DNA of 64,000 bases from NCBI GenBank assembly GCA_937889545.1, contig CALAOT010000004.1, forward strand, positions 40,129 through 104,128. Reading direction: 5' to 3'. Position numbers and translations under genes: made by a program. The stretch comes from an uncultured Opitutaceae bacterium (lineage in GTDB: Bacteria > Verrucomicrobiota > Verrucomicrobiia > Opitutales > Opitutaceae). Positions 15,369 to 37,926 of the stretch are shown in pieces. The notes under the pieces are model-generated. The model was not told where the DNA came from. It was given only the letters and a program-made list of their open reading frames with translations, and ran no database searches. Position 1 is the first letter of the stretch, and each line of letters opens with the position of its first letter.

Positions 15369-15398
15369 CGCCGGCCGGCCTCGGCGGTTCGCCGGCTA
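15366..15398. terminator. Candidate bidirectional hairpin between convergent genes
   Basis: Between the stop of the LivK-like gene and the stop of the GH127 gene lies an imperfect inverted repeat: a left arm beginning TAGCGCCGGC and a right arm GCCGGCTA around a short GC-rich loop, with a two-base bulge. Its location between convergent genes fits a shared terminator. There is no clear T-run, so the call is weak. Confidence 0.25.
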
Positions 15399-17303: not shown

Positions 17304-17369
17304 GTGGGTGTGTCGGCCGATGAAAGGGGGTCTTCCGGGAATCGGCCAGATCTTCATGCCGCGGCCGGG

Positions 17370-19100
17370 CTAGTCCATGCCCTCGACCGCGAATATCTCG
17401 ACGGGCTCGTCGCGGCCCCTCACCGGCGCCGCGCCCAGCGGGCGCACCCTGTATTGTCCGCGCGCGACCCTGAGCGTCGCGGCGCTCACCAGGATATCGG
17501 CCCGATACTGGGACATCCGCGTCAGGTCCTGGAGGCGCGCCGCCACGTTGACCCCGTCCCCGAGGACCGAATAGTTGAGCCGGCGGGACGATCCGATGTT
17601 TCCCGCTATGACTCTCGCCGTGTTTATCCCGATGCCGAAGGCCAGCTTGGTGCCACCCTCGGTCGCGAGCTCGGCGTTCAGGCGGGCGAGGGCGGATTTC
17701 ATCTCCAGGGCGGCGAGGATGGCGTTGTCCGCGTGGTTCGGGAGGGCCACCGGCGCCCCGAAGAGCGCCATGATCGCGTCGCCCATGTACTTGTCCACGA
17801 CGCCGAGGTAGATCTCCACGATCACGCTCATCCGGTCGAAATACCTGTTGAGCAGGGCGAGGACCTCGCGGGGGGGGATCGACTCGCTCAGCCGCGTGAA
17901 ACTCCTGATGTCCACGAACAGGACCGTGACCTCGAGTTCCTCGCCTCCGAGGGCGCCGCCGCCGCTGACCAGCTGCGCGGCGATCTCGGGGGAAAGGTTC
18001 TTGTCGAGCAGGTCGCGGATCTGGTCCCGCTCGGCAAGGCCCTCGCTCATCCGGTTGAACGAGGTCGCAAGCTGGCCGATCTCGTCCTCGCGGTCGAGGT
18101 TCAGGCGGATGTTGTAGTTGCCGCGTGCGACGACCTGCGTGTGCGCGGCCAGTTCGCGCAGCGGCTCGCTCAGGTTCCGCGCGAACCGGACGGCGAGCAG
18201 GGCGGCCACCGCCAGTAGGACCAAGGAGAGGTACCTGAGGAAGCGCTCCAGTTCGAGGTCGGGCGCGAGCTCGGCCTCGAGCGACCGCTGCATGGCGATT
18301 GCGGCGTAGCCCGGGGTTATGAGCGGGACGGGCCAATACACGGTCACATACGAGTTGCCGGCCACCCTGACGGTCCGATCGGCCTCCTCGGGGGAGGACG
18401 GCGCGGCCATTTTCGCCTCGGCCGCCGGCAATGAGGACTCGATCGGCATCATGGCATCGGACCTGCCAAAGAAGACTGTGACCTCGACGCGCGCGTCCGC
18501 CTTGAGTTCCATCACGAACCTGTGGTCGACGGGAATGGCGAGCCCGATCCAGGCGCCGGTCTCGGGCACCCGCGCGTGCGTGGGCACCACGAGCAGCGCG
18601 TACAGCTTGCCGTTTCCTCGGTCGTCCGGAAGGTGCGCAAAGGCCTGGTCGCGCGCCTCGCCGGAGATCGACGCGTTCTTCACGAGCTCCTGGAAGGGGC
18701 GTAGCGCCGCTCTGGGCAGGGCGCCCCCCGTGTCCCCGATCCTGGATCCGCCGGGTGAGAGCAGCACCATGAAGGGGACGTTCATCCGGGCACTGTAGGT
18801 ATTCAGGGCCGATCGGGCCGCGGCGGGATCGGGCCTGTCCCCCAGGAAGAGCTGCTGAAAGGCGTCATCGCGCGACATCATGACGGCGCGGTTCCAGAGT
18901 TCGTCCAGCTTGGCGTCCGTGCGGTGCTTGAAGAGCAGCGCCCCCTGTTCGAGGCCCTCGTCGATGCGCCTGGCCGCGCTCTTGCGGTTCTCCCTGACCA
19001 CGAAGATGTAGTTTGCGCACTGGGCGAGCGCGACAAGCCCGACAATCAGGAGCAGCAGACGGCTGCTGAAGCGCCTGAACCTGGGGAATCTGGAGCTCAT
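17370..19100 (-). CDS. Membrane-bound adenylate cyclase (class III) with sensor and HAMP domains
   Basis: A 576-residue signalling protein. A membrane segment at about 13-33 and a second at about 285-305 enclose a periplasmic sensor of about 250 residues. A HAMP linker follows, then a class III cyclase domain from about 385 to 560. Metal-binding aspartates are in LFVDIRSFT and YMGDAIMALFG; the Lys of DKYMGD and the Asp of SVLGDGVNVAARL fit ATP specificity, so the product should be cAMP. ATG 19100 is preferred over an upstream TTG at 19109. It is divergent from a peptide exporter carrying two cyclic-nucleotide-binding domains, so the two probably act together (inference). Confidence 0.92.
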   Translation of the reverse strand: MSSRFPRFRRFSSRLLLLIVGLVALAQCANYIFVVRENRKSAARRIDEGLEQGALLFKHRTDAKLDELWNRAVMMSRDDAFQQLFLGDRPDPAAARSALNTYSARMNVPFMVLLSPGGSRIGDTGGALPRAALRPFQELVKNASISGEARDQAFAHLPDDRGNGKLYALLVVPTHARVPETGAWIGLAIPVDHRFVMELKADARVEVTVFFGRSDAMMPIESSLPAAEAKMAAPSSPEEADRTVRVAGNSYVTVYWPVPLITPGYAAIAMQRSLEAELAPDLELERFLRYLSLVLLAVAALLAVRFARNLSEPLRELAAHTQVVARGNYNIRLNLDREDEIGQLATSFNRMSEGLAERDQIRDLLDKNLSPEIAAQLVSGGGALGGEELEVTVLFVDIRSFTRLSESIPPREVLALLNRYFDRMSVIVEIYLGVVDKYMGDAIMALFGAPVALPNHADNAILAALEMKSALARLNAELATEGGTKLAFGIGINTARVIAGNIGSSRRLNYSVLGDGVNVAARLQDLTRMSQYRADILVSAATLRVARGQYRVRPLGAAPVRGRDEPVEIFAVEGMD

Positions 19101-19504
19101 GGGGCCCAAGGTCTCGCCCTCACCTCCATCCGGCGCCCCGCGCAGCGGCCCCCGGGGTCGGCGCTCCCGCCGGAACTGCCGTGGCTGCGCGGAGGGCGGT
19201 TGTTGGGTGGCGTTTCATCGGGGAGGCGTGGTTCAGAACTGGTGCACGAAGCTCGCGCTGACAAGGTCGTTCACATCCGGGCCTCCTCGGGCCTGCGCAG
19301 TCTCGTCCCGGCGGATTGCATGGCCTCGACTTTCAGGCGCGCAGCTTGCGGATGGAGAGGGCCCGTTTGGGAGACAAGCCTGCGCAAGGTCCGGCCGCCC
19401 GGCGTTTCGGCCGCGCCTCCAGGTCCGCGGTGCCGGCCACCTCGCGCCGGCTGGGCCTCAACAGGATTGCCCTTGCCCGTGTTTTTATCGGCAATAGCGC
19501 CCCG
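19101..19504. other. Intergenic region between divergent cyclase and exporter genes
   Basis: About 400 bases without a supported gene. It should hold the promoters of both the adenylate cyclase and the exporter, but no convincing -35/-10 pair, operator or RNA structure can be picked out. The sequence is as GC-rich as its neighbours. Confidence 0.5.
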
Positions 19505-22500
19505 ATGGCAACGGACGACACCGACGAACTCCTGCGCGGCTCCGCGTTTCTGAAGTTTGTCCCGGAAGGGCACCGGGCGGGGCTGTGCGGGATGTTCCGG
19601 AAGGAGCGCTTCGAATTCGGGGACCTGATCGTCCGGGAAGGCGATGCGGCGGACGCCTTTTTCTTCCTGGCGTCGGGGCGGGCCCGGGTGGTCAAGACGA
19701 ACGACAGGGGAGAGGAGCTGGTCCTGGCCTCGCTGCGGCCGGGTTCCGAGTTCGGCGATGCCGCGCTCCTCGAAGGGGGCGTGCGCACGGCCTCCGTCCG
19801 GTGCAGCACCTCGGTTGAGGTCCTGAGGCTGGGGCGCGACGACTTCCTGGAGATGCTTGGGCGCCATCCGGAACTGAGGAACTACCTGGAGATGACGGCG
19901 CGCTTCCGGGCCATGCACAGTTTCCTTTACGAGTTCAGCAACTTCGGGCGCCTCTCCGCGCCGGCCTTCAGGGACCTGATCGAGAACCTGTCGCGCGTCA
20001 GCTTCCCGAAGGGCCAGTTGATCCTGCGCGAGGGCGAGCCCGCCGGACCGATGTACATCGTCCTGGCTGGGCGCGTGCGGATATTCACCTCCAAGGGCGG
20101 CCGGGTGAAGAACCTGGCCTTCTGCCGCGAGGGAGACTTCTTCGGCGAGCTCTCGCTGCTCACCGGCTCGCCGCGGGCGGCGTCGGCCGAGGCCTCGGCG
20201 GACACGCAGCTGTTCGCGCTGAAGCCTGAGGCGGTCCACGACCTGAGGCGGAGGTATCCGGACTTCTCGAAGCTGCTGGAGGAGCGGGTGGCGCAGTACA
20301 ACAAGGACGCCGAGGCGCGCGTCCCGCTGGATTTTTCGATCGAGTCGCTTCCCGCGGAGGCGGGCGCCGCCGGCCCCGGGGATTCCGGGCCGGATCTGGC
20401 GGAGACCGCGCCGTCCGCCGAGGACGAGGACCCCTTTGCCGACGAGAAGGGTCTTTTCGCAAAGAGAAAGGGGCGGATCAGGAGCATTCCGTTTGTGCAG
20501 CAGATCGACGCGATGGACTGCGGGGCGGCGAGCCTCGCCATGGTATGCCGTCATTTCGGCCGGGACGTCAGCCTGTCGCTCATCCGGCGGCTCTGCCACG
20601 TCTCGCAGGATGGAACGAGCCTCAAGGCCATCTGCCATGCCGCGACCGAATTGGGCCTGGCCGCGCGTTCCGTCAAGGCGTCGCTGCGCAATCTTCCGGT
20701 CATGCCCCTGCCCGCGATCGTGCATTGGGAGGGGAACCACTGGATGGTGCTGTTCGATGTCGGCCGGTCCCATGTGCGGGTGGTTGATCCAGGGAGGGGC
20801 CCCCGCAGGATCCCCCTTCGCGAATTCGAGGAGAAATGGTCGGGCTACGCGGCCCTGTTCGACTACACGATCGCCTTCGAGAATGCGCCGCTAAACCGGC
20901 CGAGCCTGGCGTGGCTGGCGCCTTTTCTCCGCAGGTTCCGCTCCGTCCTGGTCCCGGCCGTCCTTCTTGCGGGGGTGATCAGCTTCCTCCAGCTGCTTTT
21001 CCCCATCTTCACCCAGACCGTCGTGGACAAGGTGATCGTCGAGCACGACCTCGGGCTGCTCAACATGATCATGGTCGGGTTGGGCGCGTCCCTGGTGTTT
21101 TTCCAGCTGGCCAATCTCGCGCAGCAGTACCTGCTCGGCTTCGCGGCCCTGCGGATCGACGCGGCCCTGCTCGATTACCTGACCCGCAGGCTGCTCTCGC
21201 TGCCGATGTCCTATTTCGCGAGCCACCGCACAGGCGACATCCAGCGGCGGCTGGATGGGGCGCGGCAGATCCGACAGTTTTTCGTGCAGCACGGCATCGG
21301 CGGCCTCCTGGCCCTTGTCCAGCTGCTGGGATCCGTGGTCCTGATGGCGGTCTACAGCCCCAAGCTCACGGCAATATTCCTCTCCACCACTCCGCTCTAC
21401 GCCGTCCTGATGGCCTTCTCCGCGAAGGTGCTGAGGCCGCTCTTCTCCGACATCGAGCAAAGCCAGGGGAAATACAACTCGCACCAGATAGACGCGATCA
21501 AGGGGATCGAGGCGGTCAAGGCGGCGTCGGCCGAGATAGCCTTTCGCGGGGCGATCCTGGGCGAGTTCCTCGCCGTCGCGAAGAAGCTGTTCCGGAGCAA
21601 TTTCATCGTGATGTCCTATGACAGCGTCCTGCAGACCATCGGCCTGATCTCGACCGGGCTGTTCCTGTGGTTCGGAGCCCATAGCGTGATCGAGGGCCAG
21701 CTTACGGTCGGCGGCTTTGTCGCCTTCAGCTCCCTCACGGCCATGGCCTACGCCGCGATACTCCGGGCGCTTGGCACATGGGACAGCCTTCAGATGGCGT
21801 CGGTGCTCCTGAACCGGCTCAACGAGATCTTCGACGAGGAGCCGGAGCAGGGCAGCGACCGGTCCCGGCTCATTCCCGTGCCCAGCCTGGAAGGGCGCAT
21901 CGAGCTGAGGAACATCGGCTTCAGGTACGGCGGCCCGGAGGCGCCGGCCATCCTGAAGGGCGTCTCCTTCGACATCGCCCCGGGCCAGATGGTCGCGGTC
22001 GTCGGCCGGAGCGGAAGCGGCAAGACGACGCTGATCAAGCTGCTGGCCGGCCTGATGGAGGCGACCGAGGGAAGCATCCACGTCGACCATCTCGACATCA
22101 AGACCGTGAACTATCGCGACCTGAGGCGCCAGATCGGCATGGTCCTGCAGGAGAACCACCTGTTCGACGCCACGATCGCCAGCAACATCGCCTTCGGGGA
22201 CAGCGAGCCCAACTTCGACCGCGTGCTCTGGTCGGCGCAGGTCGCGAACGCCCACGATTTCATCATGCGGCTGCCGATGGGCTACGAGACCCGCATCGGC
22301 GAGTCCGGACTGGCCCTCTCGGGCGGGCAGAAGCAGCGGATCGCGATCGCCCGCGCGGTATACAACGACCCGCCTATTCTGATCTTCGACGAGGCAACGA
22401 GCGCGCTCGACACGGAATCGGAGCGCACCATCCAGGAGAACATGGGCCGGCTGATGTCCGGCCGCACGTGCATCGTCATCGCTCACCGGCTGAGCACGAT

Positions 22501-22624
22501 CCGCGAGGCGAATGCGATCATCGTTCTCGAAAAGGGCGAGATCGCCGAGACCGGGACCCACGACGAGCTCATGGCCAGGCGCGGGCTCTATTTCTACCTC
22601 TCCAGCCAGCAGCTGGGAATCTAG
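19505..22624 (+). CDS. C39-peptidase ABC exporter with two N-terminal cyclic-nucleotide-binding domains
   Basis: A 1039-residue inner-membrane protein, far longer than the usual 700-residue peptidase-containing exporter. Two cyclic-nucleotide-binding domains come first: about 10-125 (GSEFGDAALLEGGVRTASV) and about 150-265 (GDFFGELSLLTGSPRAASA). A C39 peptidase follows, with catalytic Cys339 in QIDAMDCGAASLAM, His412 in GNHWMVLF and Asp428 in VVDPGRG. The membrane domain spans about 470-760. The ATPase has Walker A GRSGSGKTTL near 834, signature LSGGQKQR near 938 and Walker B ILIFDEATSALD. C39 peptidases cut leaders after Gly-Gly while the ABC part exports the product. The general layout resembles cyanobacterial HetC. 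A HlyD partner follows 3 bases later, and four Gly-Gly peptides lie nearby. Confidence 0.95.
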   Translation: MATDDTDELLRGSAFLKFVPEGHRAGLCGMFRKERFEFGDLIVREGDAADAFFFLASGRARVVKTNDRGEELVLASLRPGSEFGDAALLEGGVRTASVRCSTSVEVLRLGRDDFLEMLGRHPELRNYLEMTARFRAMHSFLYEFSNFGRLSAPAFRDLIENLSRVSFPKGQLILREGEPAGPMYIVLAGRVRIFTSKGGRVKNLAFCREGDFFGELSLLTGSPRAASAEASADTQLFALKPEAVHDLRRRYPDFSKLLEERVAQYNKDAEARVPLDFSIESLPAEAGAAGPGDSGPDLAETAPSAEDEDPFADEKGLFAKRKGRIRSIPFVQQIDAMDCGAASLAMVCRHFGRDVSLSLIRRLCHVSQDGTSLKAICHAATELGLAARSVKASLRNLPVMPLPAIVHWEGNHWMVLFDVGRSHVRVVDPGRGPRRIPLREFEEKWSGYAALFDYTIAFENAPLNRPSLAWLAPFLRRFRSVLVPAVLLAGVISFLQLLFPIFTQTVVDKVIVEHDLGLLNMIMVGLGASLVFFQLANLAQQYLLGFAALRIDAALLDYLTRRLLSLPMSYFASHRTGDIQRRLDGARQIRQFFVQHGIGGLLALVQLLGSVVLMAVYSPKLTAIFLSTTPLYAVLMAFSAKVLRPLFSDIEQSQGKYNSHQIDAIKGIEAVKAASAEIAFRGAILGEFLAVAKKLFRSNFIVMSYDSVLQTIGLISTGLFLWFGAHSVIEGQLTVGGFVAFSSLTAMAYAAILRALGTWDSLQMASVLLNRLNEIFDEEPEQGSDRSRLIPVPSLEGRIELRNIGFRYGGPEAPAILKGVSFDIAPGQMVAVVGRSGSGKTTLIKLLAGLMEATEGSIHVDHLDIKTVNYRDLRRQIGMVLQENHLFDATIASNIAFGDSEPNFDRVLWSAQVANAHDFIMRLPMGYETRIGESGLALSGGQKQRIAIARAVYNDPPILIFDEATSALDTESERTIQENMGRLMSGRTCIVIAHRLSTIREANAIIVLEKGEIAETGTHDELMARRGLYFYLSSQQLGI

Positions 22625-22627
22625 CCC

Positions 22628-23833
22628 ATGGCGATGACACCGAACGCAAGGCGAGCCGACCGGGATGCGCTGGACAGCGAGTCGGCGATGCTGCCGCAGG
22701 ACCCCCCGCACTGGGTTGTCCGGGGCACGGCCTGGCTTATCATAGCCCTGTTCGCGACTGCGCTGCTGGCCGCCGTTCTCGTCCATGTGCCGGAGACGTT
22801 CCGCTGCCCGTGCATCCTTGTTCCGGAAGGAGGCGCCGACCCGATCCAGTCGCCGCGCCTCGCGGAGATCCGCCAGGTCCGCGCCGGCGAGGGCCGTGAG
22901 GTCGCGGCGGGAGACGTGCTCTTTGTCCTGAGCTCCGAGGACGTCGGCGACCGCGACACCCAGGCGCGCACGCTGGAGGAGGACCTGGCATCGCGGAAAA
23001 GGAACATGAAGCAGGCCGAGGCAACCGATGCCGCGGACCTCGAGATCAAGGACCACGAGATCGCCCAGGCCGACGAGGAGGTGCGATTCCGAGAAACCTC
23101 CGTTGGCGTCGAGCGCGACCTGGCGGCCCGGTATGAGAAGCTCTCGAAGATCGGGGTCTACTCGGAGACGGACCTGGTCTTGCGCCGGCTCGAGCTCGCG
23201 GGAGCCGAGAAGGACCTCAGTGTCGCCTCGCGAACCCGCCAGCAGGTCATCCTGCAGCGCCAGCAGATGGCGGCAGAGCAGGCCCGGCAGCGTTCCGACC
23301 AGCATGCGGAGATCGAGAAGCTCGAGATCCGCCTGGGCGCCCTGAAGCGCGAGCTCGAGGACTCCCACCAGAACTTGATCTCCGTGCGCGCGCCCTATGA
23401 CGCCGTGGTCATCTCGCTGGCCGCGAACAATCCGGGAAGCGTGGTGCAGAGGGGCCAGGAGCTGTGCCAGCTCGCCCGCGCGGACGGGGGGCTGAGACTG
23501 CACCTGCTGCTGGCCGAGCCGGGGCTTGCCCGGATCGCGGTGGGCCAGCGCGTGAGATTCTTCGCCGATGCCTTCCCCTATCAGCGCTACGGCACCATAT
23601 CCGGGACCCTTTCATGGATCAGCCCTTCGGCCGTCTCATCGCGCGAGGGCAAACAGTTTGTCGCCCTGGCGACGCTCGACCGGAAAGCCTTTCAGGTCGG
23701 CGGGCAGGCCCGGCCGCTGCGCGTCGGGATGGGCGGCGAGGCGCGGATCGTGGTCGGCAGCCGGACGCTGATCGAATTCGTCCTGGAGCCGATCCGCCAG
23801 CTGCGGGAGAATCTCGGCCGTCCCACCCTCTGA
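22628..23833 (+). CDS. HlyD-type membrane fusion protein of the peptide exporter
   Basis: A 401-residue periplasmic adaptor. After a short cytoplasmic tail (HWVVRGTAWL) comes one membrane helix at about 35-56, then a lipoyl/barrel-sandwich half (PIQSPRLAEIRQVRAGEGREVAAGDVLF), a long charged coiled coil (about 110-240) and the second half (LISVRAPYDAVVISLAANNPGSVVQRG given in part). Such proteins bridge an inner-membrane ABC exporter and an outer-membrane channel. It starts 3 bases after the exporter stop, so the two are surely one operon. No TolC-like gene is beside it; the only one in the window belongs to the Cus operon. Confidence 0.9.
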   Translation: MAMTPNARRADRDALDSESAMLPQDPPHWVVRGTAWLIIALFATALLAAVLVHVPETFRCPCILVPEGGADPIQSPRLAEIRQVRAGEGREVAAGDVLFVLSSEDVGDRDTQARTLEEDLASRKRNMKQAEATDAADLEIKDHEIAQADEEVRFRETSVGVERDLAARYEKLSKIGVYSETDLVLRRLELAGAEKDLSVASRTRQQVILQRQQMAAEQARQRSDQHAEIEKLEIRLGALKRELEDSHQNLISVRAPYDAVVISLAANNPGSVVQRGQELCQLARADGGLRLHLLLAEPGLARIAVGQRVRFFADAFPYQRYGTISGTLSWISPSAVSSREGKQFVALATLDRKAFQVGGQARPLRVGMGGEARIVVGSRTLIEFVLEPIRQLRENLGRPTL

Positions 23834-23837
23834 CGTG

Positions 23838-25052
23838 TCACGCGCGGGTTGAGGGGGGCAGAAGGTTGATGATGCCGAGGTGGTAAAGAAGGTAGAGCTG
23901 CTTCCGCAGCTCGGGGAACGGAACCGAGAGCGGGATCCTGCGCAGCACGCCTCCCATCGAGCGGCCGCCGTCGCCGCGGCGCAGGAGTTCAAGCTCCCAT
24001 TCCGGCATGCGCCACGCCATCGAGAGGTTGAGCGCGCGGCTTGCGATCGTGAGCCTTCTGAGCCGGTCGAGCACCCTTTTCCCCGGCTTCGGGAGCCCGA
24101 TCCTGTAGAGGCGGGTGGGCACTATCCTCCATTTCAGCAGCTGGCCGCGGCGTTCCCAGGGGGGGGTCGCCTCCGCCTTCTTGGAGAAGAGCAGGCGGTG
24201 GAACTGTGAGGGGCTGAGCCGCTCCAGGAAATCGACGACCTGCGCGCGAGATCTTGGGATCAACAGAGGATGCAGGTCGTTTTCGGCAATCCGCCGGAAC
24301 AACCTTATCGAGGACCAATTCCCGCGAAGGTTGAGCCCGGCCCGCCGGCCGTGGCGCACCCACTGCGACAGCGTCAGGCTCTGGTTCAGCGGCCCGAACA
24401 CGTCGCTGGACAGAAACTCCGGCTCATGGCCCGAGACCCGCGGGAGGCCGTCAACCGTGACCACGGTGTCGCACAGCTTCAGCACGCTGCGCAGGCGCGG
24501 GGAGTCCTGAAATGCATTCATGTCATATCCAAATGCCGGCAACGCCTGCCTGAGCCGCGTGTTGACGTGCCTCGACCCGTTTACGGCAAGGTAAAGGGCG
24601 CCGTCGGCCTTGAGGCAGCGGCCAAAGTTTCTCATGACCCGTGCGGTCCGGGGGATGTAGGAAAGCACGCCGTGGCAGATGATGAGGTCGAAGCCGCCGC
24701 CAACCTTCGCAGGAAGGCGCGGATCAGTCAGGTCTGCCGCGACAAAGCGGATGTCGCGCATCTCTTTGGCGCGCCGTTGCAGGCGCCTGGCGACCGCAAT
24801 GGAGCGGGTGCTGAAATCGACCGCGACTATTTCGGCGTCGGGCAGCCTGCGACGCAGATTGAAAGCCTCGGTCCCGTCCCCGCATCCGGCCACGAGCACC
24901 CGGGCCGGCGCCGTGTTTCGGGCCTCGGTCCGCCCGATCGCACCGACCCACTCGAGGACGAGGGTCCACGAGCGCCGCTTCAGCGCCTTGTTGTTGCCAA
25001 ACGGATACGGACGCCGGTCGTAGGTTTGGCGGACTTGGTCGGCGATCTTCAT
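23838..25052 (-). CDS. Class I SAM-dependent methyltransferase with long C-terminal extension
   Basis: A 404-residue cytoplasmic protein. The N-terminal part has YDRRPYPFG, then the SAM-binding motif VLVAGCGDGTEAFNL, an acidic end of strand 2 in EIVAVDFSTRSIAVARR, ADLTDPRLP, and FDLIICHGVLSYIPR, all of the class I methyltransferase fold (about 50-200). The remaining 200 residues are not recognised. The gene is convergent with the HlyD gene (4 bases between stops) and divergent from the precursor peptide array. The target is unknown; it could modify the small peptides or be unrelated. Confidence 0.82.
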   Translation of the reverse strand: MKIADQVRQTYDRRPYPFGNNKALKRRSWTLVLEWVGAIGRTEARNTAPARVLVAGCGDGTEAFNLRRRLPDAEIVAVDFSTRSIAVARRLQRRAKEMRDIRFVAADLTDPRLPAKVGGGFDLIICHGVLSYIPRTARVMRNFGRCLKADGALYLAVNGSRHVNTRLRQALPAFGYDMNAFQDSPRLRSVLKLCDTVVTVDGLPRVSGHEPEFLSSDVFGPLNQSLTLSQWVRHGRRAGLNLRGNWSSIRLFRRIAENDLHPLLIPRSRAQVVDFLERLSPSQFHRLLFSKKAEATPPWERRGQLLKWRIVPTRLYRIGLPKPGKRVLDRLRRLTIASRALNLSMAWRMPEWELELLRRGDGGRSMGGVLRRIPLSVPFPELRKQLYLLYHLGIINLLPPSTRA

Positions 25053-25153
25053 TCCGATAAAATGGCGGGATTTACGCGATCGAGGCGGGGTTTTCAGATA
25101 CAGGCGGCCATGGAGATCTTAAATCATCGTGTAATCTATTATTTAGTAATTGA

Positions 25154-25168
25154 TTGTGATAATCACAA
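25154..25168. promoter_or_regulatory. Perfect 7-1-7 inverted repeat in the AT-rich region before the peptide array
   Basis: TTGTGAT-A-ATCACAA is a perfect palindrome in the only strongly AT-rich stretch of this part of the window (about 25115-25320), between the divergent methyltransferase and the first precursor gene. It resembles the TGTGA/TCACA half sites bound by CRP/FNR-type regulators, but the gap between half sites is 3 bases, not the usual 6 or so, so it is not a standard CRP box. An operator role is inferred from the position alone. Confidence 0.4.
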
Positions 25169-25319
25169 ACCATTGGCATAAATGTATTGACCGTCCTAAT
25201 GGATATCATGAGAGAATCTGGCCAACGAAGCTCTCCACCTTATTAGTCCTGCGATTGCCAAACAGCTAATCAAAAAGTGGGCGCACAACCAAGAACGTCA
25301 CAACCCCATACTTAATAAC

Positions 25320-25457
25320 ATGGCTTCCCCAAAGAAAAAAGCTACCGCAAGAACCGCTGTCAAATTCAGGGATCTCAAGTCGAAGAAGAACCCCAAGGGT
25401 GGGATTAGTGGAGGGGATACCCCTACTGAAAGCCTCAAGTGGAAAAGGCTTGAATGA
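25320..25457 (+). CDS. Double-glycine precursor peptide 1
   Basis: A 45-residue peptide. Residues 1-28 are the shared leader: MASPKKKATARTAVKFRDLK then SKKNPKGG. The predicted released part is ISGGDTPTESLKWKRLE (17 residues), basic and without Cys. The leader is Lys-rich with F-[KR]-D-L-[KN]-S and ends P-K-G-G, the expected cut site of a C39 peptidase, though it lacks the usual E/L-rich double-glycine leader pattern. The ATG is preceded by the block CAAGAACGTCACAA and TAAC found before all four copies; no clear Shine-Dalgarno is seen. First of four tandem copies, start-to-start distances 285, 283 and 312 bases. Confidence 0.85.
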   Translation: MASPKKKATARTAVKFRDLKSKKNPKGGISGGDTPTESLKWKRLE

Positions 25458-25470
25458 TTGGCAGTAGAAC

Positions 25471-25520
25471 TCCCTTGCGGCCGGGGATCGCGCGGCTTTC
25501 GCCTCCAAAATCACGCGGAA
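25471..25520 (+). pseudogene. Decayed copy of the 5' end of the parvulin-like gene (relic 1)
   Basis: After precursor 1, the DNA reads A-G-D-R-A-A-F-A-S-K-I-T, matching T-G-D-C-A-A-F-A-F-R-G-T at the start of the gene at 26332. The match is short and followed by a stop, so it is not functional. It shows that the duplicated unit included the beginning of the next gene. Confidence 0.5.
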
Positions 25521-25604
25521 CTCCCCGCAGCGCTGATCCCCAAATCGCCAAGTTGCTATCGATAGGAAAGCGCTCAACCCAAAACGTCAGAACCCAAGAA
25601 TAAC

Positions 25605-25736
25605 ATGGCTTCCACAAAGAAAAAGGCTACGGCCAAGTCCCGTGTCAGTTTCAAGGATCTCAAGTCGAAGAAGGACCCCAAGGGTGGGTGCGCTTCGGGG
25701 CAGCACCTCCCTTCAATGATAAAGTTCGGCGGATAA
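25605..25736 (+). CDS. Double-glycine precursor peptide 2
   Basis: A 43-residue peptide. The leader is MASTKKKATAKSRVSFKDLK then SKKDPKGG (28 residues), one or two residues different from copy 3. The predicted released part is CASGQHLPSMIKFGG (15 residues), with a Cys as first residue after the cut site and a terminal Gly-Gly. Leader DNA is almost identical to copy 3 while the tail DNA is unrelated, a sharp boundary exactly at the Gly-Gly codons. The upstream block AAAACGTCAGAACC is a variant of that before copy 1. Confidence 0.87.
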   Translation: MASTKKKATAKSRVSFKDLKSKKDPKGGCASGQHLPSMIKFGG

Positions 25737-25745
25737 GGAGTGGAG

Positions 25746-25851
25746 GGCCTCCGCACCTCGCCGGCCGAGGATTGCGCGGCCTTCGCTTTCAAAGCCACCA
25801 CGGGAACCCTCCTCCGAATCGGTTCCGCAGCCGCGTTTCGCGGATCAAGAA
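25746..25851 (+). pseudogene. Decayed copy of the 5' end of the parvulin-like gene (relic 2)
   Basis: This is the clearest relic. In one frame it reads R-T-S-P-A-E-D-C-A-A-F-A-F-K-A-T-T and later A-A-A-F-R-G-S-R, matching R-V-S-P-T-G-D-C-A-A-F-A-F-R-G-T-T and R-A-A-Q-F-R-G-E of the gene at 26332, over about 100 bases. The codon matching the GTG start is ACC here and a stop follows near 25860, so it is dead. It lies in the same frame as precursor 2, as the intact gene does with precursor 4. Confidence 0.65.
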
Positions 25852-25887
25852 AACACTAAGGACAAGAATATCACAACACCCACTAAC

Positions 25888-26040
25888 ATGGCTTCCACAA
25901 AGAAAAAGGCTACGGCCAAGTCTCGTGTCAGTTTCAAGGATCTCAATTCAAAGAAGAACCCCAAGGGCGGCACCACCATAGGGTCGGCGACAGGGGGCGC
26001 GGGTGCGGGAAAGATCAAGTTTGAGCTCAAGTGGGAATGA
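25888..26040 (+). CDS. Double-glycine precursor peptide 3
   Basis: A 50-residue peptide, the longest of the four. The leader is MASTKKKATAKSRVSFKDLN then SKKNPKGG. The predicted released part of 22 residues starts TTIGSATGGAGAGK and ends IKFELKWE: a Gly/Ala-rich flexible half and a lysine/aromatic half. K-I-K-F and L-K-W recall S-L-K-W of copy 1 and M-I-K-F of copy 2. The internal G-G pairs could offer a second cut site, but the leader-borne P-K-G-G at 25-28 is the conserved one. Confidence 0.87.
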   Translation: MASTKKKATAKSRVSFKDLNSKKNPKGGTTIGSATGGAGAGKIKFELKWE

Positions 26041-26061
26041 TTAGCCGGTGGGCCTGCGCGC

Positions 26062-26111
26062 ATGGCCGACCGGGCATCGCGCGACCCTTGGGCCCATCCT
26101 GCGGGGCGCTT
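26062..26111 (+). pseudogene. Decayed copy of the 5' end of the parvulin-like gene (relic 3)
   Basis: After precursor 3, GGCCGACCGGGCATCGCGCG matches the DNA around the start of the gene at 26332 (GCCGACCGGAGATTGCGCGG), followed by a weaker CCCTTGG/CCTTTGC match. The frame is broken, so this is the most decayed of the three relics. Similarity is seen in bases only. Confidence 0.4.
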
Positions 26112-26199
26112 CGGGACACCGCGGTATTAGCTCCACATTTGCCATGTCCCCGGTCAAATGGGGGGCGTTCAAGCAAGAACGTCACAATCCAGGACTAAC

Positions 26200-26316
26200 A
26201 TGGCTTCCGCGAAGAAGAAGGCCTTGGCAAGAGGCGCTGTTGAATTCAGGGATCTCAATTCGACGAGGGACCCCAAGGGTGGGGTTAAGCTCGAACCAAG
26301 AGTAAAGACTGGTTAG
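26200..26316 (+). CDS. Double-glycine precursor peptide 4
   Basis: A 38-residue peptide. The leader is MASAKKKALARGAVEFRDLN then STRDPKGG, the most diverged of the four, but it keeps the F-R-D-L-N-S core and P-K-G-G. The predicted released part is VKLEPRVKTG (10 residues). It carries the upstream block CAAGAACGTCACAA like copy 1, and is followed 15 bases after its stop by the GTG of the parvulin-like gene in the same frame, so the two are probably translated from one message. This may be the copy closest to the original single-unit arrangement. Confidence 0.82.
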   Translation: MASAKKKALARGAVEFRDLNSTRDPKGGVKLEPRVKTG

Positions 26317-26331
26317 CAAACGAGTATCCGC

Positions 26332-27390
26332 GTGTCGCCGACCGGAGATTGCGCGGCCTTTGCATTCAGGGGCACAACCGTCAGCGTCGGCGAGGCTGTC
26401 CGGGCTGCGCAGTTCCGAGGCGAACTGCGGCCGTCCGTCTCCGAGGTCGCCTGGGAAGTTGCCTGCGAGGAGGAGGCTGCCCGATGGAACCTGGAGGCGG
26501 ACGATGGCGCCATCGATGCGATGGTCGATCGCTTCCGGTATGAGAACGATCTGATTTCAGCCGAGGAAGCGGAGGCGTGGCTCGGGGCCCGCGGCCTTAC
26601 CCCGGACGAGTTCCAGGACTATTTCATCCGACGCTACTGGCGGGAGACCCTCAGGGAGAAGGTCATTCCCGAGCGAATTGAACCCTCGCGGGTCGTGCCG
26701 GAATTGCTCGGCCTGCTTCAGATCGAGCTCCTCATGTCAGGGGCCTTCGGCCCGGTCGCGACTGGGCTGAGCCGCCGCCTCGTGGCGCGCGCTGCCGCGG
26801 AGGCGCCGGCCGGTGCGAAACTGGTGAAGGCGGAGCGTGCACGGCTCCTTGCGCGCGCGGGCCTGGAGCCCGGCGCCCTGGCGGGATGGCTCAAGTCCCT
26901 TGACCGCAGCAAGGACTGGCTGGAAGGCATGCTCGAGATGGAGGCCTTGTACCGTCTCAGGTGCGGCGCCGTCCTGACGCCCGAGCGGCTATCTGGGGAG
27001 CTGGCCGCGGCGCGCCTGCCGCTCACGAGGCTCGAGGTTGAAACGGTGGAATTTGATTCCGCCGATGCCGCGCGCGAGGCGCTCTTGTGTGTCCGCGATG
27101 ACGGCCTTTCGCTGGAGGAGGTGGCCCGTGAGTCGCGCTATCCGTTCAAGCGGCTCGAGATCCTGGCGGAGGATCTGGCCGAGGACCAGCGCCAGAAGCT
27201 GCTTTGCGCCGGAATCGGCGAGATCCTGGAGCCTGCGCAAGCAGGCGGCGTTTTTCACCTCAGCCGTTTGCTTCGGAAGGCCGAGCCCGCCCTCGGTGAC
27301 GCTTTGGTCAGGAGCCGCGTTGAGCAACGGATCCTGGACAACTACTTCTCCGAGGCCGGCGCCAACGACATCCGCTGGTTCGTCCGATAG
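26332..27390 (+). CDS. Parvulin/SurA-like peptidyl-prolyl isomerase-type protein of the peptide cluster
   Basis: A 352-residue protein, mostly helical, without signal peptide. Its middle has a SurA-like chaperone pattern (DRFRYENDLISAEEAEAWL, then GLTPDEFQDYFIRRYWRE). The C-terminal 120 residues align in outline with a parvulin domain (DGLSLEEVARESRYP, GIGEILEPAQAGGVFHLSRL), but the G-G-D-L-G segment usual in active parvulins is not seen, so isomerase activity is doubtful. PpiC-like proteins of this kind accompany HetC-like peptide exporters in cyanobacteria and other phyla. A role as precursor chaperone or carrier is inferred. The start is GTG 26332; the frame upstream closes at the TAG of precursor 4. 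Confidence 0.75.
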   Translation: MSPTGDCAAFAFRGTTVSVGEAVRAAQFRGELRPSVSEVAWEVACEEEAARWNLEADDGAIDAMVDRFRYENDLISAEEAEAWLGARGLTPDEFQDYFIRRYWRETLREKVIPERIEPSRVVPELLGLLQIELLMSGAFGPVATGLSRRLVARAAAEAPAGAKLVKAERARLLARAGLEPGALAGWLKSLDRSKDWLEGMLEMEALYRLRCGAVLTPERLSGELAAARLPLTRLEVETVEFDSADAAREALLCVRDDGLSLEEVARESRYPFKRLEILAEDLAEDQRQKLLCAGIGEILEPAQAGGVFHLSRLLRKAEPALGDALVRSRVEQRILDNYFSEAGANDIRWFVR

Positions 27391-30780: not shown

Positions 30781-31470
30781 CTACGGCTGCCCGTAGTAGG
30801 CCCGGGGCCCGTGCTTGCGTCGGAAATGCCGGTCCAGAAGCGCCGCGGCGATTCTGGCGCGTTTGGGCCGGAGCCCGAGCGTGAGGAATGCCAGCCTGGC
30901 GCAGAGCTCGATCGCCACCGCGTTCTCGACCGCCTTGGCGGCGGTCGGGCCCCACGCGAAGGGTCCGTGATGGGCCACGAGCACGCCGGGAACCTCCTCC
31001 GCGCTCAGTTTCGAGAACCTCTCGAGGATGACCCGCCCCGTCTCGGCCTCGTAGCCGCCGCGGATCTCCCGCCTCGCGAGCGCGCGCGTCACCGGGACCT
31101 CCCCGCGGAAGAAATCCGCGTGGGTCGTGCCCAGGACCGGGATCGGCCGCGCGGCCTGGGCGAAGGCCGTCGCGTAGAGCGAATGCGTGTGCACGATGCC
31201 GCACGCTTGGCCCAGCCCCCGGTACAGCTCGACGTGGGTCGGCGTGTCCGACGAGGGCCTCAGCCTGCCCTCGACCCGCCTGCCGTCGAGGTCGACGAGC
31301 ACCATGTCCGACGCCCTCAGCCTGTCGTAGAACACGCCGCTCGGCTTGATGGCCATGATGCCGCGCCCGCGGTCCAGGGCGCTCGCGTTCCCAAAATTCA
31401 GGTGGATGAGCCCGTGTGCCGGCAATTGCATGTTTGCCTCGTAGGCTTCGCGCTTCAGCTCGGTCAGCAT
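30781..31470 (-). CDS. araD: L-ribulose-5-phosphate 4-epimerase
   Basis: A 229-residue class II aldolase-fold enzyme, the family's normal length. It converts L-ribulose 5-phosphate to D-xylulose 5-phosphate, the last step of L-arabinose catabolism. Zinc ligands are seen in HTHSLYATAF (two His) and HHGPFAWG, with the Asp of SSDTPTHVELY; the phosphate-binding NFGNASALD and KPSGV are also present. ATG 31470 (MLTELKREAYEANMQLP) matches the usual N-terminus. It lies 35 bases after araA in the araB-araA-araD operon. Confidence 0.95.
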   Translation of the reverse strand: MLTELKREAYEANMQLPAHGLIHLNFGNASALDRGRGIMAIKPSGVFYDRLRASDMVLVDLDGRRVEGRLRPSSDTPTHVELYRGLGQACGIVHTHSLYATAFAQAARPIPVLGTTHADFFRGEVPVTRALARREIRGGYEAETGRVILERFSKLSAEEVPGVLVAHHGPFAWGPTAAKAVENAVAIELCARLAFLTLGLRPKRARIAAALLDRHFRRKHGPRAYYGQP

Positions 31471-31505
31471 GGGGGGTGGGGGGCTTCGTGCGGTCCGCTT
31501 GCCGG

Positions 31506-33020
31506 TCAGTCGCGCGGGTTTGCGCCGGACCGATAATAGGCCTCGTTCCAGCGGAGCTCCTTCTCGAGCTCGGCGAGGCGGGTGTCCCCGCCGATGAGCA
31601 CGAGCTCTATCCCAGCGATCTCCGCGAAGTCGCGCAGGTGCTCCGCGGTCACGGCGTAGCTGAAGGCGGTGTGGTGCGCCCCGCCGGCGCGGATCCAGGC
31701 CCCGCAGGCGGTCTTGAAATCCGGGCGGCACCTCCAGACCGCGCGGGCGACCGGGAGCTTCGGCAGGGGCAGCGGCGGCTCGACCACGTCGACCTCGTTC
31801 GCGACAAGCCTGAAGCGGCCGCCGAGGTCTATCAGCGAGGCGTTCAGCGCCGCTCCCGCCGGGGCGTTGAACACGAGGCGCACGGGGTCGTCCTTGCCGC
31901 CGATGCCGAGCGGGTGGACCTCGAGCGAGGGCTTTGCGGCCGCGATCGACTCGCAGATCTCGAGCATGTGGGCCCCCAGGACAAGGCTGCCGGACGGATC
32001 AAGGTGGTACGTGTAGTCCTCCATGAAGGACGTTCCTCCCCCGAGGCCCGCGCCGATGACCTTCATCATGCGCAGGAGGGCGCAGGTCTTCCAGTCGCCC
32101 TCCGCCCCGAATCCGTAGCCGTCGGCCATGAGCCGCTGGACGGCGAGGCCCGGCAGCTGCCGCAGGCCGTGCAGGTCCTCGAAGGTGGTCGTGAAGCCCT
32201 TGAAGCCGCCCCTTTCCAGGAACGAGCGCAGGCCCAGCTCGATCCGCGCGCCTTCGCGCAGCGATTCATGGCGGGCTCCGCCGCGGCGCAGCTCCGGGGC
32301 GACCGCGTAGCGCTCGGCGTACTCGGCGCACAGGCGGCTGACCCTGGCCTCCGCCACCCCCCTGACCTCGGCCGCGAGGTCGCCGACCCCGTAACCGTCG
32401 ACCGAGTAGCCGAAGCGCGTCTCCGCGGCGACCTTGTCGCCCTCGGTGACCGCGACCCGGCGCATGTTGTCGCCGAACCGGGCGAACCTTGCGCCCTGCA
32501 GGTCCTGCCAGGCCCGCGCCACCCGCATCCACGCGCCGAGCCTGTCCAGGACCTCCGGGTCCTCCCAGTGCCCTACTACGATCTTCCTCGGCAGGCGCAT
32601 CCGCGCGTGGAGGAATCCCGCCTCGCGGTCCCCGTGCGCGGCCTGGTTGAGGTTCATGAAGTCCATGTCGATCTCCCCCCAAGGCAGATCGCGGTTGAAC
32701 TGCGTGTGCAGGTGGGCAAACGGCTTGCGCAGGATGGACAGCCCCCCGATCCACATTCTCGCGGGCGAAAACGTGTGCATCCAGAGGATCAGGCCCGCGC
32801 ATTCGGGCGCCTGGTTCGCCTCCTGGCAGACCGAGCGGATGTCGCCGGCCGTCGTGAGCACCGCTTTGAACCTGACCGCGAGAGGGATGGCCGGCGCCGC
32901 GCTGAGCGCCCGGGCGACCTTCAGGGAATTGGCCGCGACCTGCCTGAGCGGCCCGGGCCCGTACAGGTGCTGGGAGCCGGTGACCAGCCAGATTTCGGAT
33001 TTCGATAGGTTTTTCATCAT
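31506..33020 (-). CDS. araA: L-arabinose isomerase
   Basis: A 504-residue cytoplasmic, manganese-dependent isomerase converting L-arabinose to L-ribulose. Typical segments are [13 protein letters not shown] at the N-terminus, [29 protein letters not shown], and the active-site regions [14 protein letters not shown] and [13 protein letters not shown] with the conserved Glu and His residues. The C-terminus includes [19 protein letters not shown] and HHTAFS. Normal family length. It starts 10 bases after the araB stop. Confidence 0.97.
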
Positions 33021-33030
33021 TGCGGGTGGG

Positions 33031-34698
33031 TCACTTGTCGCGGGCGTCGGCCTGGATTGCCAGGAGTTCCTTCATCACCTGGGAGAGGTCTGCTCTCCGG
33101 CGGACGCCCCCGAACCCGTCGTGAAGCGTGCGGTACTGGGCATAGAGTCGGTTGTAGGCCCTCCTGCGGCGGGGATCGGGCTGGTACGCAACCTTCTTGA
33201 GCCGGGTCATCGCCTTCTGCGCGGCTGGAAAATCCCTGTGGGCCCCCGCCAGCACCGCGGCGCTTATCGCGGCGCCGAGGGCGCAGGCCTGGTTCGACCC
33301 GGCGACCTGCATCGTGCAGCCCGTCACGTCGGCGTAGATCTGCATCAACAGCGGGTTCTTCTCCGCGATGCCCCCGGCGCAGACGATCCTGCGGGTCGGC
33401 ACGCCGTGTTCCCGGATCCGCTCGATGATCATCCGGGCGCCGAAGGCCGTGGCCTCGATGAGCGCGCGGTAGATCTCGGCCCGCGTCGTCTGCAGCGTGC
33501 AGCCGACCAGGAGCCCGGTCAGCCGGGGGTCCACGAGGATCGTCCGGTTGCCGTTCTGCCAGTCGAGCGCGAGGAGCCCGCTCTGGCCGGGTTCGTGCCG
33601 GGCGGCCTCCGCGCTCAGCCGGGCGTGCATCGCCCCGTCTCCGCCGCAGACCGTGTCGACCCACCAGTTGAAGATGTCGCCGACCGCCGACTGGCCCGCC
33701 TCGATTGCGTGGTATCCCGGCAGGATCGAGCCCGGCACGATGCCGCAGATCCCCGGGATGTCGGGAACCCTCCCCCTCGACGAGACGAGCGCGCAGTCGC
33801 ACGTGGACGTGCCGATGACCTTGACGAGGGTCCCCACGCGGATGCCGCAGCCGATCGAGCCGTAATGGACGTCGAATTCCCCGATCGCGATGGGGATGCC
33901 GGCCGGGAGGCCCAGGCGCCGGGCCCAGTCTGCGCTCAGGGAGCCGGCGGGGGTCGTGGCGTCGAACGCGCGCCCGTAGAGGCGGTCCCGCAGGCCGGCG
34001 AGCCGGGGATCGAGCGCGGAGAGGAAACTCTTGTCCGGGAGGCCTCCCCACCCGTCGCTGTAGAGCGCCTTGTGGCCCGCGGCGCAGACCCCGCGGACGA
34101 CCCTGACGGGGTCGGTGACCCCGGCCAGGAGGGACGGAATCCAGTCAGCCAGCTCCACCCAGGAGTACGCCGCGTTGAAGACGCCCGGGGCCACCTCCAG
34201 GCAGTGCCATATCTTCGACCAGAACCACTCCGAGGAATACCGGTTCCCGCATTTCGCGATGTACGCGGGCCGCATCCTCGTCGCGGCCTCGGTGATCCGG
34301 GCGGCCTCGCGCCAGCTCGTGTGGTCCTTCCACAGCCAGCACTGGGCCTCGAGGTTGCGCCGCCATTTACGGCCCAGCGCGAGCGGGCGGTTGCGGCGGT
34401 CGACCGGGATGGGGCTCGACCCGGTGGTGTCGACTCCGACTCCCACGACGCGCGCTGCCGAGAAGCCCCGGGTCCGCCCCGCCGCTGCGAGAGCGCCCCG
34501 GACGCATTCCTCCAGCGCGACCGGGTAGTCGCCCGGGTGCTGGCGCGCGAGGTGGGCGTCGCCCGGGTCGAGGAGGACGCCCTGGCGGCCGCTGCGGTAC
34601 CTGGCGACGCAGCTGCCGAGCTCCGCGCCGTCCCTGCAGCGGACGACGAGGGCTCGCGCTGAATTCGTTCCAAAATCTATTCCGAGGGTGAACGCCAT
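33031..34698 (-). CDS. araB: Ribulokinase
   Basis: A 555-residue FGGY-family kinase that phosphorylates L-ribulose to L-ribulose 5-phosphate. It begins [19 protein letters not shown], the family's first phosphate loop, has [25 protein letters not shown] and [19 protein letters not shown], and the second ATP motif [20 protein letters not shown]. The ATG at 34698 gives this canonical N-terminus; the frame is open further upstream but unrelated. First gene of the araBAD operon, divergent from the symporter gene with about 130 bases between starts. Confidence 0.96.
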
Positions 34699-34755
34699 GG
34701 TGGGGCGGGAATTCGAATCTATCCGCGTTGCGGGCTGAGACGATCCTGTATTGAC

Positions 34756-34765
34756 TGGACGTCCA
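34756..34765. promoter_or_regulatory. Palindrome in the araB-symporter divergent promoter region
   Basis: TGGACGTCCA is a perfect 10-base palindrome in the segment between the divergent araB and symporter genes, inside the context TTGAC-TGGACGTCCA-AGTGAA. GntR-type AraR operators also have a central ACGT, so it is a candidate arabinose-responsive operator for both operons. No regulator gene lies beside it. The call rests on position and symmetry only. Confidence 0.35.
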
Positions 34766-34831
34766 AGTGAACCGAATGTCGCCGCGGAAGGCACGGTTTT
34801 TCTGGCTTCTGCCCGCTGCCCCTCCCCAATC

Positions 34832-36661: not shown

Positions 36662-36711
36662 CGGGCGCGGGCCCCGCCCGCCCGCCCGCCCGCTCCACGA
36701 TTGATTTCCCC

Positions 36712-37842: not shown

Positions 37843-37926
37843 GGGAGGCAGCCGCGCTTCGCCGGGCGGGCCTTGACAGATCCGAGGCTCGTGACAGGCA
37901 TGGTAGGCGGGTCCCATTTTCCCATC

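Follow-up and report, generated by a model that had tools for sequence, protein, structure and literature searches.

We analysed a 64,000-nucleotide stretch of DNA from an uncultured Opitutaceae bacterium (contig CALAOT010000004.1, positions 40,129 to 104,128; hereafter the window), in which four small tandem genes encode peptides that share one Gly-Gly leader and continue into unrelated tails, close to genes for a C39-peptidase exporter, an HlyD-type protein, and a SurA-like protein. Judging from sequence comparisons, we consider it probable that this shared, non-classical leader acts as an export tag for the SurA-like/C39 machine, independently of the chemistry carried out on the peptide behind it. 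It is customary to regard the leaders of ribosomally synthesized and post-translationally modified peptides (RiPPs) as the place where modifying enzymes of a single class dock. A constant leader combined with changing chemistry would mean that a single profile could reveal hidden peptides of several classes in Verrucomicrobiota, including those of orphan precursor genes, which are short and easily missed by mining that starts from the enzymes.

Four tandem genes encode a constrained leader

The precursor genes and the repeats that contain them are as follows.

25320 to 25457, forward strand: precursor 1, 45 aa; leader MASPKKKATARTAVKFRDLKSKKNPKGG, 17-residue tail ISGGDTPTESLKWKRLE
25605 to 25736, forward strand: precursor 2, 43 aa; 15-residue tail CASGQHLPSMIKFGG
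25888 to 26040, forward strand: precursor 3, 50 aa; 22-residue tail TTIGSATGGAGAGKIKFELKWE
26200 to 26316, forward strand: precursor 4, 38 aa; 10-residue tail VKLEPRVKTG; directly 5' of the SurA-like gene
25285 to 26283, forward strand: span of four 119-nt direct repeats, each covering about 35 nt 5' of an ATG and the leader codons behind it

The first-pass annotation, made from the letters of the window and its open reading frames (ORFs), had described four tandem small ORFs with a constant 28-residue leader and unrelated tails, and our measurements of leader and tail lengths agree with it. The four leaders, which end in PKGG, are 64-93% identical in pairs, and none of the six pairs of tails scored clearly above shuffled sequences (p 0.11-0.56). 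The frame of precursor 4 contains an earlier ATG at 26158, and leader homology runs from the ATG at 26200 onward. The repeat copies (25285-25403, 25570-25688, 25853-25971, and 26165-26283) follow one another at spacings of 285, 283, and 312 nt.

Codon statistics without coding constraint would, according to that annotation, have refuted its proposal; the statistics reveal such constraint. Across 19 similar leaders, out of 22 with 28 residues from the window and sister genomes, we counted 1117, 926, and 1890 differences at codon positions 1, 2, and 3, and the mean proportion of synonymous differences (pS) was 0.56, compared with 0.20 for nonsynonymous differences (pN). The window leaders alone gave 24, 28, and 46 differences at the three positions, with pS above pN in all six pairs. 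Given this third-position excess and the ratio of pS to pN, we conclude that the leader is coding and constrained. Since a profile built from the four window leaders matches other genomes at E-values down to 1.6e-15, we also conclude that it is not a chance pattern.

A scan of positions 25050-26500 against Rfam gave no match at E<=0.1. Positions 25154-25168, within an AT-rich stretch 5' of precursor 1, form a perfect 15-base palindrome (TTGTGATAATCACAA), which among 42 loci was present only in those from the window's own genome.

The leader tracks an export machine

Four larger genes flank the precursors.

19505 to 22624, forward strand: exporter with two cyclic nucleotide (cNMP)-binding domains, Peptidase_C39, ABC_membrane, and ABC_tran (Pfam)
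22628 to 23833, forward strand: HlyD-type membrane fusion protein, 401 aa (HlyD_3 and TIGR01843)
23838 to 25052, reverse strand: class I S-adenosylmethionine (SAM) methyltransferase, 404 aa, between the HlyD and peptide genes
26332 to 27390, forward strand: SurA/PrsA-like protein, 352 aa, directly 3' of precursor 4

An exporter with HlyD had been placed 1.5-6 kb from the peptides on the same strand. Measured upstream from the first peptide gene, the HlyD gene ends at 1.5 kb and the exporter gene ends at 2.7 kb and starts at 5.8 kb, on the same strand as claimed. The likely start of the exporter is the ATG at 19505, with the open frame extending back to a TTG at 19316. Its C39 motifs are intact (DCG...GNHW...DPGRG), and we take DCG, GNHW, and DP..G to be the catalytic Cys, His, and Asp motifs; among 10 exporter relatives compared (L074 and L076 left aside), DCG and HW are present in all 10 and DP..G in eight. 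The HlyD gene product matches HlyD_3 at 2e-16, above the Pfam cut-off, and TIGR01843 at 141.1 bits, below that model's cut-off of 208.65.

Within the genus, the SurA-like gene is present in 4 of 13 genomes (G000, G003, G007, and G010), and these same four carry the leader at E<1e-9, the methyltransferase, and the long C39 exporter. Other genus members gave leader matches of only E 0.066 and 0.076, and G008 and G011 have other C39 matches and no leader. A sample of the class contained the leader in 7 of 384 genomes and the SurA-like gene in 9, with all 7 inside the 9, and a sample of the phylum contained them in 4 and 9 of 387 genomes, with all 4 again inside the 9. In 10 of 10 leader-positive genomes (the window, L009-L011, L068-L070, L090, L091, and L093), the SurA-like, exporter, and HlyD genes are adjacent, or within one cluster (window and genus), and they are likewise together in the Chthoniobacterales record L012. 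The leader peptides lie in the same stretch as the machine in all cases but G241 and G666, which carry them on a different contig. The leader-profile search in Verrucomicrobiota suggested by the first-pass annotation has accordingly returned homologues, in genomes with both the SurA-like gene and a C39 exporter. The SurA-like gene belongs to the peptide system.

Several observations weigh against so close a link. Nine of the 13 genus members are without the system, and more distant SurA-like genes with no such leader are found in two genomes of the class sample (G565 and G579) and five of the phylum sample. In both of these samples, five candidates per genome were scored with the SurA-like profile; the co-occurrence counts run over related genomes and are not independent; and the four leader-bearing genus drafts are 64-98% complete (G007 64%; G010 87%, with 3% contamination). 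At five more distant SurA-like/C39 loci (L071-L074 and L076), we found neither a classical-type leader by pattern nor a KDxKGG-type leader.

One exporter and scattered precursors

The window genome, G010, G003, and G007 have one C39 match each, and in every case it belongs to the exporter. G010 contains 16 leader matches on 12 contigs, 15 of them recovered as complete ORFs, and in the window's own genome the leader was found only in the four cluster genes. The upstream word GTCANAAC occurs within 40 nt of 10 of 22 precursors, compared with 5 of 3198 window stretches, the window's own precursors being among these. Given that each leader-bearing draft has a single C39 match, that the G010 leaders are spread over many contigs, and that precursors share an upstream word, we infer that a single exporter serves scattered precursors in trans.

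Different RiPP-type enzymes adjoin the leader at some loci

We examined one to a few ORFs at each of 15 other leader loci, and at three loci a RiPP-type enzyme adjoins the leader (LanKC/LanL-like, LanB-type C-terminal, and radical SAM/SPASM, respectively). At G010:C248, the precursor has a tail with many Ser, Thr, and Cys residues (KDVLSISPTNTCSTTPTCRT), and the next gene encodes a class III/IV lanthipeptide-synthetase-like protein with RamC_N and kinase domains (LanL model, 1.9e-88). At G010:C243, a pair of precursors is flanked on both sides by a Lant_dehydr_C protein; the two proteins match at 8.1e-23 and 1.4e-8, and only the first is above the TIGR03891 cut-off. In G003, a radical SAM/SPASM protein, which matches rSAM_PapB at 4.1e-39 and has a SPASM domain above its cut-off, is encoded after a precursor with this leader and a CPC tail; that precursor is some 2.2 kb away from the one in the cluster itself.

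These assignments have weaknesses that count against a leader shared across chemistries. The remaining 12 loci have unrelated domains (for example, a MacB/FtsX permease) or none. The LanKC/LanL-like protein reaches 297.8 bits of a 650-bit cut-off, over positions 6-459 of 851, and leaves the C-terminal part of the model unmatched; the second LanB-type protein falls below its cut-off (21.5 of 48.45); an 888-aa ORF beside the LanB-type proteins is without any family match; and the G003 maturase scores 134.7 of 340 bits. Since such enzymes adjoin 3 of the 15 loci and none was seen among the ORFs scanned at the rest, the leader appears to front precursors that look plain as well as ones that may be modified. 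Our scan of window genes turned up the methyltransferase and no RiPP-forming enzyme, and for this reason the four window tails are probably linear, and unmodified or methylated, on release.

Alternatively, the SurA-like protein and the methyltransferase might themselves modify the tails in a new way and so define a new RiPP class, which we regard as unlikely. Among the 13 genus genomes, the methyltransferase occurs in exactly the four that have the leader, and 5 of the 11 machine loci carry it; the SurA-like MirC (TIGR04500) is needed along with its synthetase for graspetide formation (PMC13097080). However, the methyltransferase was not found in the examined stretches of 6 of the 11 machine loci, so that it is an accessory of only part of the relatives, and it occurs without the leader in the family members G030 and G038 (41-44% identity). 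In addition, the SurA-like protein reaches 35.3 bits with the TIGR04500 model, whose curated cut-off is 180, and none of the window genes scanned encodes an ATP-grasp ligase. The best matches of the methyltransferase among Protein Data Bank (PDB) sequences include protein lysine methyltransferases 1 and 2 (E ~3e-7), which are presumably rickettsial.

The leader differs from known double-glycine leaders

A profile built from 25 peptides matched 224 of 5.8 billion proteins at E<=1, and the figures for the family given here concern the 120 that were listed. All but one of these (119/120) have the leader signature, including Gly-Gly before a variable core. Among the 119 listed leaders that can be cut, every one has Asp at -11 with Leu at -10, a hydrophobic residue at -13, and Asn or Asp at -5, and most have a hydrophobic residue at -15 (95/119) and Lys at -3 (114/119). 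The cutting pattern itself demanded D[LF], and a looser cut gave the same 119/119 for -10 and -13. Leaders of 28 residues are found in the window and in a named entry from an Opitutaceae bacterium (P0112), and leaders of 22-25 residues, such as MATKKKEVKVRDLKPSKDAKGG, in another named entry (P0174) and at locus L012, both from Chthoniobacterales. Four matches in other genomes at E 0.05-0.08 (L018-L021) were left out of the peptide list as chance matches, and no ORF was recovered for the match at G010:C232 or the weak match at G007:C159. A scan of genome contigs gave only two loci.

The classical double-glycine leader is of the LSxxELxxIxGG type. We tried this consensus, as well as the refined cyanobacterial one, and rejected both, as 0 of the 119 listed leaders fit. 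A scan of the 25 members against NCBIfam at E<=1 gave a single match, of one member to TIGR04149 at E 0.69, and none to NHLP (TIGR03793) or N11P (TIGR03798); the best Pfam match of the same members had E 0.064, and no family was convincing. Five leader words had no occurrence in the literature searched, and no paper describing such leaders in Verrucomicrobia turned up among those listed. The earlier suggestion that the leader falls outside both the classical and the Nif11/NHLP kinds holds up, on the residues at -4, -7, and -12 given below and on the NCBIfam result. So does the proposal of an undescribed precursor family: neither NCBIfam nor Pfam has a convincing model, the leader words are absent from the literature searched, and the genomes with the leader are ones that have the export machine. 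The comparisons thus support the view that the leader defines an undescribed Gly-Gly precursor family adjoining a C39 exporter.

The same residues raise a difficulty for our reading. In a solved C39 domain, pockets hold leader hydrophobics at -4, -7, and -12 (PMC6363468). Strongly hydrophobic residues occur at these positions in only 1, 0, and 0 of the 119 listed leaders, which mostly have Pro or Ala, Lys or Ser, and Lys or Arg there. Because the leader lacks these hydrophobics, cleavage by the window's C39 domain is uncertain. Either the leader sits in the groove in a different register, or it is the SurA-like protein that recognizes it. The shifted hydrophobic register also offers a direct test of C39 substrate selection.

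Tails are hypervariable and mostly lack cysteine

The tails of the 119 listed members include 116 distinct sequences, with a median length of 22 residues. Some kinds recur among them: ten end in LNPQPLPP, ten start with PIY or PIF, 21 have an AFDAY-like start, twelve contain GGD (window precursor 1 included), and nine are internally repetitive (for example, QGATR and VAGRT repeats). A literature search for the motif NPQPLPP turned up no paper. Two precursors of one cluster, L068:7928 and L068:8184, have the identical tail PISWPGRN, against the usual divergence. At L090:9068-9756, three tandem precursors have VAGRT/VAGRQ repeat tails, two of them identical, and other short-leader members have similar five-residue repeats in their tails.

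Hypervariable tails could mean that the peptides are narrow-spectrum antimicrobials (bacteriocins) whose variability reflects an arms race. This is possible, and we hold it with some doubt. It would fit the C39/HlyD export, the duplicated precursors with hypervariable cores, and the lanthipeptide-type enzymes that adjoin some leaders in a sister genome. Nevertheless, Cys is present in just 11 of the 119 listed tails, some tails have only 4-11 residues, and the window genes scanned include no recognisable immunity gene.

Relics of the SurA-like gene behind some precursors

Behind some of the precursors, we found fragments that resemble the 5' end of the SurA-like gene.

25478 to 25508, forward strand: relic behind precursor 1; its score of 37 was reached by 1 of 3000 background stretches
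25770 to 25801, forward strand: relic behind precursor 2; its score was reached by 0 of 3000 background stretches
26057 to 26090, forward strand: possible decayed relic behind precursor 3, marginal; its score was reached by 77 of 3000 background stretches

The relic behind precursor 2 reads AEDCAAFAFKATT, compared with TGDCAAFAFRGTT in the SurA-like gene, and the same scar lies behind the orphan precursors at G003:C67 and G010:C212 (0 of 3000 background stretches each). The simplest account of the scarred copies would be duplication of a unit of upstream element, precursor, and SurA-like 5' end beside the SurA-like gene, followed by dispersal and change of the tail. Three of the 25 precursors tested sit directly 5' of a real SurA-like gene, and behind 17 of the 22 others, two G010 cluster copies included, the scar was not found, which counts against our reading.

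Given that the duplicated unit holds broken pieces of a neighbouring gene, one might suppose that the four ORFs are themselves functionless remnants of duplication. We consider this very improbable, as the codon-position pattern and the pS and pN values show constraint on the leader, which is present at many loci in many genomes.

Neighbouring genes

A gene with HAMP and adenylate/guanylate cyclase domains (17370-19109, reverse strand) is divergent from the cNMP-domain exporter. It adjoins the exporter in the window and L009 (80% identity) only; as a general partner of the exporter, such a cyclase was rejected, being absent from the available stretches of 12 other loci, and we keep it as a lead. 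In the Chthoniobacterales locus, a sigma-54-type activator gene (L012:14407-15402) lies between HlyD and the precursors. Genes for arabinose and arabinan use surround the window cluster (15396-17357 and 30781-40806), with no apparent link to the peptides. The flanking genes include GH127, class II aldolase-type, AraA (arabinose isomerase), FGGY kinase, sodium:solute symporter, GH2, and helicase genes, among others. They come from a scan of eight further window genes, all of carbohydrate or housekeeping types, among which no RiPP or immunity gene was recognised.

A proposed export route and possible roles

The AlphaFold model of the SurA-like protein (pLDDT 92.7) has its best fold matches in PrsA and SurA (E 4.5e-6 and weaker), residues 228-322 form a parvulin-like domain (1.9 A over 93 residues to 3gpk_B), and a profile of 32 homologues matches SurA at 2.3e-5. 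A Pfam scan of the protein gave no rotamase match. The fold match is local, with whole-length TM-scores of 0.2-0.4, and this weighs against our reading. Judged by eye, the N-terminus has no evident signal peptide, which suggests that the protein is cytoplasmic.

In the route that we propose, the precursor would be made and then held in the cytoplasm by the SurA-like protein, its predicted escort, which would hand it to the cNMP-domain C39 exporter. The exporter would cut after Gly28, and the variable tails would leave through HlyD and a presumed outer-membrane channel. The exporter may also be gated by cyclic nucleotide, a form of regulation suggested by its cNMP domains and by the cyclase gene next door (window and L009 only). 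More broadly, we see an even chance that these loci form a verrucomicrobial secretion hub, in which export is uncoupled from chemistry. One Gly-Gly leader of shifted register, one exporter gated by cyclic nucleotide, and its SurA-like escort would then serve in trans a fast-growing repertoire spread over the genome, made up of unmodified peptides and of peptides modified in different ways (LanKC-, LanB-, and radical SAM-type). New precursors would be born beside the SurA-like gene when a unit with that gene's 5' end, later visible as a scar, is duplicated, and would afterwards scatter and come to lie near different modifying enzymes.

Rather than killing competitors, the tails could act on the producing community as surface, matrix, or signalling peptides, a role to which we give a little under even chances. 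A precedent is provided by EbfG1-4, four GG-motif proteins of Synechococcus elongatus that enable biofilm formation and are secreted efficiently only when PteB has its C39 cysteine (PMC4997328). Clusters with SurA, a long C39 exporter, and HlyD are also frequent in cyanobacteria (PMC3140520), and, to judge from its cNMP domains, the exporter may be gated by a signal. However, the role is transferred purely by analogy. Because no immunity gene was recognised and a single genome can hold many unrelated tails, we lean weakly toward a role between cells (surface or biofilm, or communication) as somewhat likelier than killing.

Comparison with known systems

The first-pass annotation mentioned neither the methyltransferase nor the SurA-like partner, and it did not include the precursors that lie outside the cluster in sister genomes or the several RiPP enzymes beside the leader. 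Cyanobacteria commonly carry clusters that combine SurA, HlyD, and a long-type C39 exporter with a CAP_ED domain (Wang et al. 2011, PMC3140520). Their group I/II clusters match ours in parts: the machine likewise has these three components, the exporter carries a nucleotide-binding domain at its N-terminus, and small GG precursors are encoded close by. In contrast, the exporter here has two cNMP domains, 0 of 119 listed leaders fit their refined consensus, and leaders in sister genomes also stand beside LanKC-, LanB-, and radical SAM-type genes. As regards the rotamase domain of cyanobacterial SurA, the window protein shows a local fold match to SurA/PrsA and a parvulin-like domain, with no rotamase match in Pfam.

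As is the case here, the SurA-like partner MirC of the rosaritide system is encoded together with an exporter of the peptidase type and with a RiPP precursor (PMC13097080), but the window protein is far under the TIGR04500 cut-off and there is no graspetide synthetase among the window genes scanned. The EbfG1-4/PteB system likewise combines four neighbouring small GG-motif proteins with a C39 transporter, although mature EbfG proteins are 6-7 kDa (PMC4997328).

The prochlorosins are products of one promiscuous system in which up to dozens of precursors combine a shared Gly-Gly leader with variable cores (PMC10783134). There, the modification enzyme (ProcM group) is shared, whereas here the exporter is shared and the neighbouring chemistry varies. 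Another parallel in organization is with the NHLP and N11P families, which have hypervariable cores and many precursors per genome, not always near their enzymes (Haft, Basu and Mitchell 2010, PMC2887384). As in our system, one Gly-Gly leader family precedes variable cores, is associated with different chemistries (in their case, TOMM and LanM), and goes with peptidase-domain transporters (PMC2887384). The leaders themselves differ, as those described here have 22-28 residues, are lysine-rich, place hydrophobics at -10, -13, and -15, have no NCBIfam match at E<=0.1, and are found in Verrucomicrobiota with a SurA-like partner and a cNMP-domain exporter. From these comparisons, the leader most likely works like the NHLP/Nif11 leaders, to which it is unrelated in sequence.

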